Source of the DNA: Candidatus Peribacteria bacterium RIFCSPHIGHO2_01_FULL_51_35
GTDB taxonomy: Bacteria > Patescibacteriota > Gracilibacteria > Peribacterales > Peribacteraceae
DNA length: 45,903 bases
Direction of reading: 5' to 3'
Assembly: GCA_001787535.1 (NCBI GenBank)
Contig: MFXP01000008.1
Span: 27,219-73,121, forward strand
How positions within the stretch are numbered: position 1 is the stretch's first letter; each line of letters begins with the position of its first letter. Positions 5,111 to 42,436 of the stretch are shown here, piece after piece. The position numbers were made by a program, and so were the translations under genes. The notes under the pieces were generated by a model. That model searched no databases. It had not been told where the DNA came from and saw nothing but the letters and a program-made list of their open reading frames with translations.

Positions 5111-8104
5111 TCACGCTACCAAACTCACAAGCTTCCCGGGCACATAAATCTCCTTCTTGATGCCTCCGGTGATGTGCTTTTGCACATTCTCCAGTGCTTT
5201 TGCCTGCTTCAAAATCTCCTCTTTGGAGGTGCCTGCGGGAACCGTGAGTTCACCGCGAAGTTTGCCGTTCACCTGCACGACGATGATCATGGTTTCGGAA
5301 ACCGTGAGCGAGGCATCGAACGTTGGCCATGCTTGTTCGACCACGAATCCTTTCTTGCCCCCCGTAGCCTTGGCGGAGGTGGGACCACCCAGTTGTGACC
5401 ACAGTTCGTCCGCAAGATGCGGAGCCATAGGTGCAATGAGCAGCGCAAATGTTTTTGCGGTTTCCAGATCGACGGATGTTTCTTTCTCCAGTGCATTCAA
5501 GAATTCCATAAGGGCACTGATGGCAGTATTGAAATGCAGTGCTTGAATATTTTCCGTCACGCGCTTGATGGTGCGGTGCAGCGCAGCCGTCACATCTTTG
5601 GATTGCTGGTTTTTTACATCGGATTTCTTTTCGATGAATTGATTCCACACACGCTGCACAAAACGATCGATGCCTTTGATACCCGTGTCACTCCAATCGC
5701 CACCGTCGGTGAAGGGACCCATGAACATGAGGTACATACGGAAGACATCACTTCCATGACGGTCTATAAAAGAATCCGGCGAGACAACATTGCCTTTGGA
5801 TTTGCTCATCTTCGCGCCCTTGTTCGTGATCAGTCCTTGATGAACTAATTTTTTGAACGGTTCATCGTGCGACACGAAGCCAAAATCCTTCAAAGCCATC
5901 ATGACAAATCGCGCGTAGATCAAGTGCATGCAGGCGTGCTCCGGACCACCGATGTACATGCTCACTGGCAGCCATTTTTTCTCAAGACTCGCATCAATAA
6001 AATCGTCCGAACTTGTGTCTTGTGTCTTGTGTCTTGTGTCTTTCTTCGGAGCATTTTCGCTCATCAAATATCTCAAGTAGTAAAAGCTGGAACACACGAA
6101 TGTGTCCATGGTATCGAATTCCGGACGCCAACCTTTTCCGAAAATCTTTTCCGTCCGTGCGATGAACTCTTTGCTTTCCGTAAGCGGAGATTTTCCCGTC
6201 GGTTTGAACTCGACATCCGTGGGCAGCAGCCAGGGAAGATGTTCCTCCGGAACGGGATGCGGATTTCCTTCCGGATCGTACACGATGGGGATGGGGGCAC
6301 CCCAGTAGCGCTGACGGCTCACAAGCCAGTCGCGGAGACGGAAATTCGCAATGGGTTTTCCACTTCCTTTCTTTTCAAGCCACACAGAAATCTTTTTTCT
6401 GGCTTCAGCCGAGGGAAGACCGGAGAATTCACCGGAATCATAGAGAATGCCATCCCCGGAATAACAAATTTTCAATGCCCGAATATCTGCATCATCCGAA
6501 CCATCTGCGGGGCGAATGGTGGTGCGAAGCGGCAACTTGTACTTCTTGGCGAAAACAAAATCTCGTTCATCATGCGCATCGGCAAACACAGCTCCGTGTC
6601 CGTAATGTGCGAGGACGAAGTCTGCAATCCATACCTGGAGCTTCTCGCCATTTGCGGGATTCGTGACAAACGCTCCGGTGAAAACTCCCGTTTTTTCTTT
6701 GGTCAAATCCGTCCGCTGGATCTCGGTTTTCTTTTCCACTTCTTTTCTGTATTTCTCAACCTCCTTCTGTTGCTCTTTTGCTGTGATCTTTAACACAAGA
6801 GGATGGTCGGGTGCCAGGACAACAAATGCTGCACTGAAGAGCGTGTCTACGCGCGTCGTGAAAACAGTGATGGTTTCAGGAAGTTTTGAAAGCAAGCGAT
6901 CGGAAGAATTGATCCCAGCCTTTTCGGGATTCTTTTGTACATACTGAAGAACAGATTTAAATTGCTCCTGCGATAAGACTTCTTCGAAATGAAATTTTTG
7001 TCCCCATAAATGCCCCCCATCAATATCATCTGCATTTTTCAAGAATTCACGAGCACTCGCTCCTTTTAATTTTTTTACAATATCTCGTTCCAGGTGCCGG
7101 CCTTCTGCGAAACTCACGAGAAGATGCACATGATCAGGCATGGCTGCAACTTCATGAAGAACAAGGGAATGCCTAGAAGCTGTTTCTTCCAAAATCCGAA
7201 GGATCTCTTGAGCATTTGCTACCGTGTCAAACGCATCCATTCTTCCATGGGGTGTAAATGTGAGATGAACTGTCCGGACGGGCGAATGAATTCGCCCGTT
7301 CCATTCATCCGTTAGCCGCCGATTTAAATCGGCGGCTAACGGGGCATCGTTATTCGGCCAATTTATTGGCCCAATGACACCGCGAAAAGCATCAACAATA
7401 TCAAAGGAAACCTCTGCACCCTCACTCTTCCCAATCCAGTTCTGCTGCATGATCTTCGTTTTCTCCGGCCAGTCGAGATCTTGCAAGCCATCTAAAAGTT
7501 TCTGCGAATACTTTTTGATATTCCAGAACCATTGATCCAAAGGTTTTTGGATAACATCCGTTCCACAGCGCTCGCACTTTCCTTCCCACACCTGCTCGTT
7601 TGCAAGCACTGTCTGATCTTTGGGACAGAAATTCACATTCCCCAGTTTTTTGTAGGCGAGCTTGTTCTTGAACATCTGCAAAAACAACCACTGCGTCCAT
7701 TTGTAATAAGAGGGATCGGACGTGTTCAGAGTTTTCTTCCAATCGTACATCGTGCCGATGCGCTTGAGCTGTGTGACCATAGTTTCCACATTCTTTGCGA
7801 TGGACTCCGCGGGAGGAACGCCTGTTTTGATTGCATAATTTTCCGCAGGCAAACCGAAGGCATCAAAGCCCATCGGCTCAAAGACATCCTTGCCCTGCAT
7901 CCGCATGTACCGAGCGTAGCTGTCTGCAGGTGCAAAGTTGTACCAGTGTCCCACGTGGAGCTTGTCTCCGCTGGGATACGGGAACATGACCAGAGAATAG
8001 TAGGGATTCTTCGCTTTCTTCAGATCCGTTTCATGGATCTTGGCTTCATCCCATTTCTTCTGCCACTTCGCTTCGGTTACCGTTGGATCGTACAAGTACG
8101 CCAT
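5111..8104 (-). CDS. leuS: Leucyl-tRNA synthetase with an inserted Y1/HUH transposase-type domain
   Basis: Charges tRNA-Leu. 997 aa, against about 800-870 for most bacterial LeuRS. The class I signatures are intact: HVGH at 50-53 (HIGH motif) and KMSKS at 765-769. The CP1 editing domain begins normally (WIGKSEGAEVSF, ~223-234) and resumes at TVFTTRVDTLF (~413-423) and HDERD (~511-515). Between these, residues ~237-410 are foreign: a Y1-type transposase domain with HUH motif MPDHVHLLV (H325, H327) and a tyrosine motif QYVQKNPEKAG (Y388). The reading frame is uninterrupted. The editing motif TTRPDT reads TTRVDT here. A (ttgtgtc)4 tandem lies in the codons for residues ~688-698, in a surface loop. 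The start at 8104 gives the family N-terminus and sits 7 nt behind TAGGAT (8112-8117). Confidence 0.95.
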   Translation of the reverse strand: MAYLYDPTVTEAKWQKKWDEAKIHETDLKKAKNPYYSLVMFPYPSGDKLHVGHWYNFAPADSYARYMRMQGKDVFEPMGFDAFGLPAENYAIKTGVPPAESIAKNVETMVTQLKRIGTMYDWKKTLNTSDPSYYKWTQWLFLQMFKNKLAYKKLGNVNFCPKDQTVLANEQVWEGKCERCGTDVIQKPLDQWFWNIKKYSQKLLDGLQDLDWPEKTKIMQQNWIGKSEGAEVSFDIVDAFRGVIGPINWPNNDAPLAADLNRRLTDEWNGRIHSPVRTVHLTFTPHGRMDAFDTVANAQEILRILEETASRHSLVLHEVAAMPDHVHLLVSFAEGRHLERDIVKKLKGASAREFLKNADDIDGGHLWGQKFHFEEVLSQEQFKSVLQYVQKNPEKAGINSSDRLLSKLPETITVFTTRVDTLFSAAFVVLAPDHPLVLKITAKEQQKEVEKYRKEVEKKTEIQRTDLTKEKTGVFTGAFVTNPANGEKLQVWIADFVLAHYGHGAVFADAHDERDFVFAKKYKLPLRTTIRPADGSDDADIRALKICYSGDGILYDSGEFSGLPSAEARKKISVWLEKKGSGKPIANFRLRDWLVSRQRYWGAPIPIVYDPEGNPHPVPEEHLPWLLPTDVEFKPTGKSPLTESKEFIARTEKIFGKGWRPEFDTMDTFVCSSFYYLRYLMSENAPKKDTRHKTQDTSSDDFIDASLEKKWLPVSMYIGGPEHACMHLIYARFVMMALKDFGFVSHDEPFKKLVHQGLITNKGAKMSKSKGNVVSPDSFIDRHGSDVFRMYLMFMGPFTDGGDWSDTGIKGIDRFVQRVWNQFIEKKSDVKNQQSKDVTAALHRTIKRVTENIQALHFNTAISALMEFLNALEKETSVDLETAKTFALLIAPMAPHLADELWSQLGGPTSAKATGGKKGFVVEQAWPTFDASLTVSETMIIVVQVNGKLRGELTVPAGTSKEEILKQAKALENVQKHITGGIKKEIYVPGKLVSLVA
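6013..6040 (-). repeat. Tandem 7-mer repeat inside leuS
   Basis: Four exact copies of ttgtgtc (plus strand) in a row. It codes on the minus strand for part of KKDTRHKTQDTSS, in a loop just before the conserved WLPV..YIGG block of LeuRS. A 7-nt unit shifts frame in each copy, so four units remain in frame only because the insert total fits. Confidence 0.8.
7278..7299. repeat. Hairpin 1 beside the Y1 core in leuS
   Basis: acgggcgaa + tgaa + ttcgcccgt: a perfect 9-bp stem with a 4-nt loop, in coding sequence. Confidence 0.8.
7309..7342. repeat. 34-nt perfect palindrome in leuS
   Basis: Centred on gatttaaatc and flanked by gttagccgcc on one side and its complement on the other. Seventeen base pairs if extruded. 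Located in the inserted segment, 5' of the Y1 core on the coding strand. Confidence 0.85.
7356..7371. repeat. Hairpin 3 beside the Y1 core in leuS
   Basis: ggccaat + tt + attggcc: a perfect 7-bp stem. Third of three consecutive hairpins in 94 nt. Confidence 0.75.
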
Positions 8105-14181: not shown

Positions 14182-14619
14182 TTAGAAAAACCATTCCAAC
14201 GTCGTAACATCCCATTTTCCGGATGCAGATGACCATGGATAATCTTCCGCATTATCAGAAAGACCTTTCTTCACGGGATTTAAATGAATGTATTTTAAAA
14301 CTTCTCGTGATTCTTTTGGAAAAGTCATATGGAATCTCGGTTGCCATATGGATCCGAGCCCGATGTTTAAGCTCACGATCCCTTTATAGACATTCATTAT
14401 TTTTGATATTTTCTCAGGTTCAACTACCTGCATCAGAAAATGGCAATGATCAGGCATGATCACAAATCCATACAAGAAAAAAGGGTGTAATTCTTGGACT
14501 CTATACAACGTATCAATTGCCTCACGAGCAAAGGCTGGATTTGCAAAGAGAGGCTTTCTATCACGAATGTTTGTTGTAATAAACATTGTCCCCTGTTGAT
14601 CGGGATGTCTTTGCGACAT
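14182..14619 (-). CDS. REP-associated tyrosine transposase (RAYT, Y1_Tnp)
   Basis: 145 aa single-domain HUH nuclease of the TnpA_REP type, which binds and nicks REP palindromes as single strands. The HUH motif is MPDHCHFLM (H58, H60), with a Cys between the histidines. The nucleophile motif is KYIHLNPVKKG (Y110), followed by the family ending YPWSS (~127-131). It is complete, though at the short end for the family. ATG 14619 lies 8 nt behind TATGAT (14628-14633), which sits in the loop of a small hairpin. REP-like copies 3 and 5 lie on either side in opposite orientation, the arrangement called a REPtron. Confidence 0.88.
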   Translation of the reverse strand: MSQRHPDQQGTMFITTNIRDRKPLFANPAFAREAIDTLYRVQELHPFFLYGFVIMPDHCHFLMQVVEPEKISKIMNVYKGIVSLNIGLGSIWQPRFHMTFPKESREVLKYIHLNPVKKGLSDNAEDYPWSSASGKWDVTTLEWFF

Positions 14620-20658: not shown

Positions 20659-20702
20659 AACCCTCTCCCTGTCCCTCCCCCTACAGGGGGAGGGAACGTC
20701 AT
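20659..20702 (+). repeat. Left arm of inverted repeat (REP/MITE-like)
   Basis: 44 nt beginning aaccctctcc and ending gaacgtcat. It contains its own hairpin (cctcccc ctac ggggagg type). Matches the reverse complement of 20737-20780 at 37 of 44 positions; four of the seven differences are two compensated pairs in the inner stem. Confidence 0.8.
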
Positions 20703-20736
20703 TTTTCTTCTTTTCATACAATTACAAAAAATCTTA

Positions 20737-20780
20737 ATGACGTTCTCTCTCCCTTAAGGGAGAGAGACAGAGAGAGGGTT
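20737..20780 (-). repeat. Right arm of inverted repeat
   Basis: Reverse complement begins aaccctctct and ends gaacgtcat, with inner hairpin tctctccc ttaa gggagaga. Separated from the left arm by 34 nt of AT-rich sequence. Confidence 0.8.
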
Positions 20781-24219: not shown

Positions 24220-24297
24220 TGGGGCGATCGATGGGATTCGAACCCACGACCCTCTGGACCACAACCAGATGCTCTAACCAACTGAGCTACGATCGCC
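24220..24297 (-). tRNA. tRNA-His(GTG)
   Basis: Full cloverleaf on the minus strand. The acceptor GCGATCG/CGATCGC is complete. The D-arm carries GCTCAGTTGGTTAGAGC, the anticodon stem-loop is TCTGG-TTGTGGT-CCAGA with anticodon GTG, and the T-arm carries GTGGG-TTCGAAT-CCCAT. Histidine identity is confirmed by an encoded extra G at position -1 opposite C73, and CCA is encoded (24220-24222). It lies divergently, 142 nt from the hisS start. Confidence 0.97.
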
Positions 24298-25789: not shown

Positions 25790-26086
25790 TTACTTTTTTG
25801 ATGGAATGTTTTCTATTTTCACGATTCCATCTTTGTACTCTTCTGGAGAGATCGAGTATTCATCCAGTCCGATACTCTGCTTGATCGCATCCGAAAAAGC
25901 TTCCGCGCCTTTTTCAATCGTTTTTTGTTCTTTCCGCTGTTCATCCATTCGATATTTTGAATATGCACCTCCCACGCCCGTGAAAGCCATCAATAGTAAC
26001 AATGAACGCGTGGAAAATTGTAACCAACGAACAAGCGATGATTTCTGTTTGATGCCTTCGGAGTTTGATCGAGGCGAATTGACCAT
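25790..26086 (-). CDS. Small single-pass membrane protein, hypothetical
   Basis: 98 aa from ATG 26086 (MVNSPRSNSEGIKQ). One hydrophobic segment (STRSLLLLMAFTGVGGAYS, about residues 28-45) is followed by a charged helical tail (MDEQRKEQKTIEKGAEAFSDAIKQ), presumably outside or along the membrane. Unknown family. An ATG at 26095 overlaps the -10 box TAGAAT (26094-26099, extended TG), so 26086, 7 nt after the box, is preferred. Its stop abuts the convergent hisS stop. Confidence 0.6.
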   Translation of the reverse strand: MVNSPRSNSEGIKQKSSLVRWLQFSTRSLLLLMAFTGVGGAYSKYRMDEQRKEQKTIEKGAEAFSDAIKQSIGLDEYSISPEEYKDGIVKIENIPSKK

Positions 26087-26163
26087 GTAGACCATTCTAG
26101 CAGAGGGTTCTATGCCGGTTTAGAACTTGTTTTATGGCTTACAGAAGAGCAAAACTCAATAAG

Positions 26164-26194
26164 AGGAAACCAACGTGACCAAGGAGACCAAGGA
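26164..26194 (+). repeat. Left inverted repeat bracketing the four-helix-bundle gene
   Basis: Built from the words gaaacca, gtgaccaagga and gaccaagga. The 20 nt gaaaccaacgtgaccaagga match the reverse complement of the right repeat (26582-26620) at 19 positions. Confidence 0.75.
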
Positions 26195-26212
26195 AAAGAC
26201 ATAAAGGGTGCC

Positions 26213-26218
26213 TACAAT
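26213..26218 (+). promoter_or_regulatory. -10 box before the four-helix-bundle gene
   Basis: TACAAT, 6 nt before ATG 26225: leaderless spacing. Confidence 0.45.
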
Positions 26219-26224
26219 GCTTTT

Positions 26225-26581
26225 ATGCACCTTAGAATGCATGAACGGCTCATTGTTTGGCAGGAAGCCTATAAATTCTGCGTTTGGATCTATGTCCTTA
26301 CAAAAAAATTCCCCAAGGAAGAAAAATACGGTCTCACAAGCCAAATACGAAGATCAAGCATGAGCGTACCGACCAATATTGCTGAAGGGAATGCGAAGAA
26401 ATCCGGAAAAGAAAAGCGTCACTACATGGAAATTGCTTCTGCCTCATTGGAAGAAGTTCATGTGGAAATTCTTCTCGCACGAGATCTGAAATACATCAGT
26501 CCGGAGGAATTTTCAAAAACTGACCAATGGATCAATCGAATCAGTTATCTCATCATGAAATTCTCGAGTTCCATCGAATAA
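26225..26581 (+). CDS. Four-helix-bundle protein (S23/23S-rRNA-IVP family, Avd-like)
   Basis: 118 aa. Family hallmarks: RLIVWQEAYKFCVWIY, TKKFPKEEKYGLTSQIRRSSMSVPTNIAEG (shown in part) and the last helix GWxxx-like QWINRISYLIM. Relatives are the proteins encoded in 23S rRNA intervening sequences and the Avd accessory protein of diversity-generating retroelements, but no reverse transcriptase is nearby. Role of stand-alone members is unknown; Avd-type bundles are basic and bind nucleic acid. Start ATG 26225 or 26237. It is bracketed by inverted word repeats (26164-26194, 26582-26620) and sits between unrelated genes, so gene plus repeats looks like a small mobile unit. Confidence 0.88.
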   Translation: MHLRMHERLIVWQEAYKFCVWIYVLTKKFPKEEKYGLTSQIRRSSMSVPTNIAEGNAKKSGKEKRHYMEIASASLEEVHVEILLARDLKYISPEEFSKTDQWINRISYLIMKFSSSIE

Positions 26582-26620
26582 TCCTTGGTCACTTTGGTTT
26601 CCCTGGTTTCCTTGGTCACC
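26582..26620 (-). repeat. Right inverted repeat bracketing the four-helix-bundle gene
   Basis: Directly after the stop codon. Plus strand reads tccttggtcac, tttggtttccctgg, tttccttggtcacc in succession. The gyrB stop follows 3 nt later, so it also marks the gyrB 3' end. Confidence 0.75.
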
Positions 26621-26623
26621 TCA

Positions 26624-28786
<2,163 letters not shown>

Positions 28787-33239: not shown

Positions 33240-33322
33240 GTTATATTGCCCTATTGTTATATTGTTAGGAATTTCTGAGTGCGCTTGCGAACAATAGTAC
33301 AATGAAACAATATAACAATTTT
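33240..33322. repeat. Word-type inverted repeat between atpE and atpF
   Basis: The 14-nt word attgttatattgtt occurs at 33253-33266 and inverted at 33306-33319. Degenerate extra copies lie at 33241-33258 and 33290-33303. The inner ~23 nt are unrelated. AT-rich unlike the neighbouring genes. Confidence 0.7.
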
Positions 33323-39128: not shown

Positions 39129-39213
39129 GGAGTATTGGAATACTAGAGTACTGGGACGTCACTTCGCGAGTGACATTGGCCAGTATTCCAGTACTCCATT
39201 ATTCCAATAATCC
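39129..39213. repeat. Word-type inverted repeat between the DedA and S41 genes
   Basis: Left arm 39129-39154 (ggagtattggaatactagag + tactgg) and right arm 39188-39213 pair at 23 of 26 positions. The words ggagtattgg, ggaatact and gagtactgg recur. The spacer holds its own hairpin gtcact-tcgcg-agtgac (39158-39174). Confidence 0.75.
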
Positions 39214-42372: not shown

Positions 42373-42436
42373 AAGGAGACCAATGAAACCAAGGAACTAA
42401 AAAAACCTTGGTCTCCTTGGTTTCATTGGTCTCCTT
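42373..42436. repeat. Perfect 23-bp inverted repeat, solo word-repeat copy
   Basis: Arms 42373-42395 and 42414-42436 are exact reverse complements, spacer 18 nt. Left arm reads aaggagaccaatgaaaccaa then gga, sharing the ccaaggagacca and gaaaccaagga words of the repeats around the four-helix-bundle gene at 26 kb. It lies between divergent genes, so it is not a terminator. Confidence 0.85.

Follow-up and report, generated by a model that had tools for sequence, protein, structure and literature searches.

Small S23-encoding elements bracketed by inverted short-word arrays: a copy beside gyrB in a Candidatus Peribacteria genome and its relatives across bacteria

The genome of Candidatus Peribacteria bacterium RIFCSPHIGHO2_01_FULL_51_35 contains a short gene for a four-helix-bundle protein of the S23 family set between two arrays of short words, and the question raised by this arrangement is whether gene and arrays together form a mobile unit and, if so, what part the protein plays in it. 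The window referred to throughout is the whole stretch of DNA analyzed (45,903 nucleotides of contig MFXP01000008.1), and positions are counted from its first nucleotide. The gene (26225-26581, plus strand, 118 aa) is preceded by a left, or 5′, array (AGGAAACCAACGTGACCAAGGAGACCAAGGAAA, 26164-26196, plus strand) with a period of 9, and followed by a right, or 3′, array (TCCTTGGTCACTTTGGTTTCCCTGGTTTCCTTGGTCAC, 26582-26619, plus strand) that is an inverted match of the left one; the words are degenerate 9-nt words of the CCAAGGA/GAAACC type, and the element as a whole (26164-26619) is 456 bp long, close to the median of 453 bp for elements of the family measured from best-matching arm to best-matching arm. 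The arms at 26165-26185 and 26582-26602 match in inverted orientation at 20 of 21 nt, a second register (26175-26196 and 26598-26619) gives a 91% inverted match, and the full 31-nt arm pair matches at 81%. The right array begins immediately after the S23 stop codon and its final base lies 4 nt before the stop codon of the convergent neighbour, gyrB (26624-28774, minus strand); the other neighbour is a hypothetical gene (25790-26095, minus strand), so that the gene positions agree with the preliminary description of the surroundings. S23 is the sole gene inside the unit, with nothing else between the arrays. A search with Rfam around the element found no rRNA, the only nearby match being a tRNA (24223-24296), and the element lies not in a 23S rRNA helix but between gyrB and the hypothetical gene. 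A leaderless promoter had also been proposed inside the unit, and the predicted one, a -10-like hexamer TACAAT (26213-26218, plus strand) at -12 from the ATG, has statistical support from the family, where 23 of 77 elements have TANNNT at precisely this offset, compared to 2.1 expected.

The product of this gene matches PF05635 (E 2.8e-36) and TIGR02436, 'four helix bundle protein' (E 2.9e-33), and its AlphaFold2 model is a confident bundle of four helices (pLDDT 96). Residues Q40, E54, G55 and E77 of the protein are invariant. Among the matches listed from a structural alignment to the PDB, the nearest solved folds are 2gsc (X. campestris XCC0516), 2rld and Avd of diversity-generating retroelements (DGRs), the last with a Z of 15-16; no transposase is among the matches listed, which is no exclusion of one. 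Although Avd has the same fold, it adjoins a reverse transcriptase and template and variable repeats, none of which accompany the window S23 gene. Pfam and NCBIfam searches of the element showed only S23 to be encoded, with no transposase family matched, and S23 carries no nuclease, transposase or recombinase signature. The gene is under coding constraint, as differences between it and a relative in the sister genome G003 number 32, 20 and 63 at codon positions 1, 2 and 3, respectively.

The 1.2-Mb source genome contains 12 PF05635 genes, ten of which lie between inverted word arrays, with words that differ from gene to gene (TTAGGATG, GACCAAGGA, GGTAGGTAAG, CAATGGACAATTGACAA, TATATTG, AATGACC and others). 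The two genes without arrays are a diverged one (L009) and one that lies beside the only RVT_1 match of the genome (L012, at C16); there is no such match beside the window S23 gene. Within the same family of genomes, 50 of 57 have PF05635 genes, with copy number reaching 21 in a 1-Mb genome. We scored the best ungapped inverted match between the 300-nt flanks of each gene, using thresholds of 12 and 14: of 101 family S23 genes, 93 score at least 12 and 77 reach 14, compared to 4.3% and 2.2% of 601 pairs of mismatched left and right flanks taken from different S23 genes, and 2.8% and 0.7% of 679 control ORFs of similar size from the same genomes. These low rates, together with the arms of 20 of 21 nt, bear out the claim that the window gene lies between inverted word repeats. 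The pattern extends well beyond the family, and a cross-phylum scan of public genomes revealed inverted arrays at 57 of 77 testable S23 loci, against 3.7% of mismatched pairs; the loci come from Bacteroidota, Acidobacteria, Verrucomicrobia, Planctomycetes, Nitrospirae, Deltaproteobacteria, Chloroflexi, Omnitrophota, Ignavibacteria, Betaproteobacteria, cyanobacteria and many CPR lineages. In ten named genomes that were searched in full, 20 of 30 S23 loci, some of them shared with the scan, have arrays (versus 2.5%), as do 26 of 29 in a sample of the class Gammaproteobacteria (versus 5.8%). The flanks of other S23 genes thus carry the repeats, in this genome, in the family and across phyla, as the preliminary description had proposed to check, and the window locus belongs to a family of very small S23 elements that extends across bacteria.

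S23 genes that lack arrays do exist, L009, L012 and several in the cross-phylum scan among them. That such loci are IVSs embedded in rRNA was considered and ruled out, Rfam finding no rRNA in 16 of them, and 20 Gammaproteobacterial S23 loci likewise gave no rRNA match in Rfam. Several of the Gammaproteobacterial elements (L341, L347, L350 and L360) directly adjoin tRNA genes. A 1.5-Mb genome of the same class (G391:C1, L351-L353) has about 11 PF05635 matches, most of them near-identical, and initially resembled a case of a multiplied element; this was rejected, as the matches are DGR accessory genes and the copy examined (L351) has no inverted arrays. In the copy read, an Avd-like gene lies between a variable-repeat-like stretch and an apparent reverse transcriptase, and the genome is unusually rich in DGRs for its small size.

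The arrays themselves have several properties that bear on their origin. In 94 family arms the word period is 7 (or 14) in 43, 9 in 29, 8 in 11 and 6 in 5, and the 5′ arm is typically G-rich, with G exceeding C in 108 of 121 arms and C exceeding G in 10. Variant words are mirrored in order, identity from arm to arm being 0.92 (a value taken at the best register and thus somewhat inflated) compared to 0.74 for neighbouring words within an arm. Words also follow the lineage of the protein: S23 protein similarity predicts shared words with r of 0.39, against a maximum of 0.105 in 2000 permutations, and the nearest S23 protein has the same period class in 61 of 90 cases, where 28.5 are expected. 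One could suppose that replication slippage at pre-existing palindromes makes the arrays and that S23 was inserted or retained there by chance, and word copy number does vary between close relatives, such as the cyanobacterial loci L275 and L285; but slippage does not account for the mirroring of variant words between arms (0.92 versus 0.74), for words that track the protein, or for an association with S23 about 25-fold above controls, arrays being rare around the 679 control ORFs, and we regard it as scarcely credible.

If the units are mobile, closely related genomes should differ in their occupancy, and the preliminary description had called for a comparison of empty sites in relatives; such sites were found, on cyanobacterial plasmids at ~97% identity and in Flavobacterium, where another site has a like pattern of changing occupancy. 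One lies in a type IV secretion operon of cyanobacterial plasmids, which is filled in Trichormus variabilis (L275) and Scytonema (L285) and empty in Aulosira, Nostoc linckia and Microchaete (L280-L282), the sequences being ~97% identical; a 5-bp GTAAT occurs a single time where the site is empty and flanks the element left and right where it is filled. The same site has a solo array, lacking a gene, in Brasilonema (L284) and a truncated S23 gene in Nostoc C052 (L283). At a second site two genomes are filled (L273 and L289) and four are empty (L286-L288 and L291), which is consistent with a duplicated TTCTA in which one more change has occurred; a third site, one gene downstream in L291, holds a different S23 whose words are also different, and at a fourth site an S23 element separates nrdB and nrdA (L279 versus L290). 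The target duplication is exact at the GTAAT site only, and is degenerate or too diverged at the other cyanobacterial sites. We note that S23 elements also lie in the sense orientation within CRISPR operons of three cyanobacterial plasmids, between cas6 and cas4 in the type I-D adaptation region (L274 and L277) and between cmr2 and cmr3 of a type III-B operon (L276), and that Picosynechococcus PCC 7002 is without the CRISPR-operon insert.

Closer to the window, elements have landed repeatedly at the gyrB-hisS junction of sister genomes. In G003 (L243) this junction is occupied by a related S23 whose words are those of the window copy and whose orientation is the opposite one, which suggests either inversion between the arms or an independent insertion. 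S23 genes with other words are found there in G038 and G045, a decayed S23 in G052, and solo arrays of unrelated words in G031, G036, G028, G054 and G011, whereas the junction is bare in G023, G055, G017, G029 and G035. An S23 gene together with its arrays is thus very probably a mobile unit. Arrays do lie behind stop codons, the left arm at a median of 6 nt from a stop on the same strand, and often between convergent genes, as they would if they were host regulatory hairpins (terminators or mRNA stabilisers at gene ends) with S23 an ordinary gene in their midst. However, this position is also as expected if selection against insertion inside genes leaves insertions tolerated only between them, and hairpins of the host should not come and go at ~97% identity with a duplication, change their words at a given site from one sister species to the next, or be nearly absent from S23-free genomes; we therefore consider such a role very improbable.

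Arrays lacking a gene are also present in the window. A solo inverted array at 42373-42436 (strand undefined) is a 23/23 palindrome, 42373-42395 with 42414-42436, closed by an 18-nt loop (AAGGAGACCAATGAAACCAAGGA) and with a single-stranded DNA fold z of -9.8; its words are the CCAAGGA/GAAACC words of the window S23, which confirms the earlier remark that solo arrays sharing these words occur elsewhere, and we take it as a non-autonomous relative of the window element. A second solo (33253-33319) shares its ATTGTTATATTG words with L008, a different S23 gene of the genome, while for a third (GGAGTATTGGAATACTAGAGTACTGG, 39129-39213) the best own match is 9 and the master S23 is not clear; neither has an assigned strand. 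There are 18-19 solo inverted word arrays in 246 kb of the source genome, four of which have the words of the single gene L008. When 19 solos were compared with the S23 arms of their own genome and with equal-sized random sets from other genomes, the sum of best scores was 230 against resident arms and 138.8 +/- 7.5 (maximum 165 of 5000) against the random sets, and 11 of the 19 scored at least 11, compared to 1.4 expected; eight have no recognisable S23 master. In the stretches sampled from 20 genomes, solos are denser where S23 copies are more numerous (Spearman 0.69, p 0.0008), and four S23-free genomes, sampled over about 319 kb, contained at most one or two marginal candidates, as against 18 in 246 kb here. 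Solos are therefore not equally common where the gene is missing (equal abundance had been named as counting against the proposal), and by correlation they depend on the resident S23 genes. The genome also contains a multi-copy inverted element, CCCTCTCCCTGTCCCTCCCCCTACAGGGGGAGGGAACGTCATT, belonging to a separate repeat family that is not built of words (window 20659-20780; L217 4033-4136; L218 18476-18993), and a similar element lies downstream of the S23-like gene L009.

What moves these units? Reverse transcriptases and Y1 transposases are the two families that were tested, and among the 50 S23-carrying genomes of the family 33 have no RVT_1 match, 15 have no Y1_Tnp (PF01797) and 13 have neither, including the single-contig genomes G028 and G030. 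Dependence on a reverse transcriptase and dependence on a Y1 transposase were thus both rejected, and neither family provides a common transposase candidate. The Y1_Tnp genes of S23-carrying genomes are associated with ordinary GC-rich, non-periodic REP-like palindromes; the exception is L222 (G000:C6:106441-106797), a Y1_Tnp gene of the source genome bracketed by the same AATGACC words as the S23 gene L011. Two Y1_Tnp matches, both on the minus strand, are also present in the window (6929-7273, inside a 1004-aa open frame, and 14362-14568).

The kinship with the Avd fold (Z 15-16) and the anatomy of rRNA IVSs might suggest an RNA-level retro-element, whose transcript folds by its arms and is copied by a cellular reverse transcriptase, Avd being a protein that works with a reverse transcriptase. 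We find this very unlikely. Beyond the 33 of 50 genomes, single-contig ones included, that have no RVT_1 match, leaderless promoters would start the mRNA inside the unit and without its 5′ arm. Mismatches between the arms are of the G.U type in 62 cases and the A.C type in 68, and this lack of a G.U preference on the coding strand gives no sign of selected RNA pairing and fits pairing in DNA.

A more serious alternative makes S23 a passenger or stabiliser, with host or foreign enzymes moving the array unit through its hairpin and S23 protecting or regulating it, for example by binding the stem. The protein has no catalytic signature, its closest folds are Avd and other S23 proteins, and the coupling of words to protein lineage follows equally from their co-inheritance as one unit. 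Yet solos are almost absent where there is no S23 and scale with its copies, the unit has no gene other than S23, whose sequence is under coding constraint, and no common transposase candidate emerges from RVT_1 and Y1_Tnp; on balance we think a passenger role unlikely.

The best overall explanation, and to our minds a reasonably probable one, is a mobile element of ~450 bp in which S23 acts on the folded ends and spreads solo arrays. From the correlations described above we infer that S23 is a trans-acting mobility factor, a role that we consider evenly balanced between true and false, the counterpoint being that its closest folds are S23 proteins without known function and the DGR accessory protein Avd. 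The S23 protein, as a pentamer, would recognise the word-array ends folded as hairpins or cruciforms in DNA and would enable copying of its own element in cis and of solo arrays in trans, with cutting and joining performed either by the protein itself or by an enzyme recruited from the host. New copies would go into intergenic gaps, as a rule directly downstream of a stop codon, and a short stretch (~5 bp) would be duplicated. The simplest idea for how the arms stay matched despite drift of their words is conversion through the hairpin during replication. The earlier suggestion of a protein that maintains or spreads short-word repeats is in this way consistent with the correlation between genes and solos, with the role itself an inferred one. 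We put forward more tentatively that S23 may represent a new class of protein for mobility, a pentamer with a four-helix-bundle fold and no known nuclease domain that drives transposition of hairpin-ended DNA through recognition of the structure of degenerate word arrays and not of a set sequence. Its products would be the rRNA IVSs and, in cyanobacteria and Xanthomonas, the heptamer repeats.

Several known systems resemble parts of this element. The 23S rRNA IVSs of Coxiella, Leptospira and others have an S23 (PF05635) ORF and terminal inverted repeats in ~430 nt; that of Coxiella burnetii, which has been called a selfish element, is 428 nt long, encodes S23p, has a terminal stem of 28 bp and carries GACAGAT heptamers in tandem upstream of the start codon (PMC4990558). 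Descriptions of IVSs place them only within 23S rRNA, from which RNase III excises them, whereas the elements reported here are intergenic and, unlike IVSs, have locus-specific words, in many cases their own promoter, and gene-less solo relatives. The proposal of a new small mobile unit stands as to mobility, which is well supported, but the unit is not wholly new, since the Coxiella IVS has the same parts (PMC4990558), and rRNA, with its IVSs, appears to be one of the places where a much wider S23 family lands. In the RAYT/REPIN system a gene is bracketed by inverted repeats and gene-less inverted pairs elsewhere match the resident gene (PMC3116915). The likeness extends to the ratio of one gene to many solos, to gene-less pairs that match resident flanks and to the presence of several families per genome; the differences are that the gene is S23 (PF05635) and not a Y1 (PF01797) transposase, and that the repeats are word arrays and not one conserved REP palindrome. 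By analogy, S23 may best be read as spreading solos in the way proposed for RAYT and REPINs (PMC3116915). DDE or IS-type transposons encode their own transposase and make a fixed-length duplication; in the window element S23 is the one protein encoded, and in the family the duplication is exact at one site (GTAAT) and degenerate elsewhere.

The heptamer repeats of cyanobacteria (STRRs), Nostoc and Xanthomonas resemble S23 arrays in being tandem G-rich heptamers, although the window element, with its period of 9, does not share the heptamer period of cyanobacterial STRRs. For the GGGAATC heptamers of Xanthomonas, often in inverted convergent pairs, and the GGGGATT heptamers of Nostoc, no mechanism has been given and they have been called not associated with mobile elements (PMC4692102). 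Cyanobacterial S23 genes lie inside heptamer arrays, and GGGAATC arrays were present in one of 369 sampled genomes (G433, probably a xanthomonad), with a frameshifted S23 gene between them in the accB-accC gap (L414); S23 elements are thus a likely source of both the cyanobacterial and the Xanthomonas repeats. In the literature searched, preprints being outside its scope, we found no link of S23 or four-helix-bundle genes to short-word repeats, heptamers beside S23p being mentioned only in the Coxiella IVS paper (PMC4990558), and an unpublished or subscription report is possible.

Among the gene-carrying mobile elements of bacteria, the S23 element seems to be one of the smallest. A single element links three old puzzles – the IVSs of 23S rRNA, the heptamers of cyanobacteria and Xanthomonas, and the stand-alone S23 proteins – and its ends, which differ in sequence from copy to copy, pose a new question, namely what keeps the two ends matched. 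If S23 is the mobility factor its class would be new, and the finding would supply a role for PF05635, a very common family of 'four helix bundle' proteins to which no function has been assigned.
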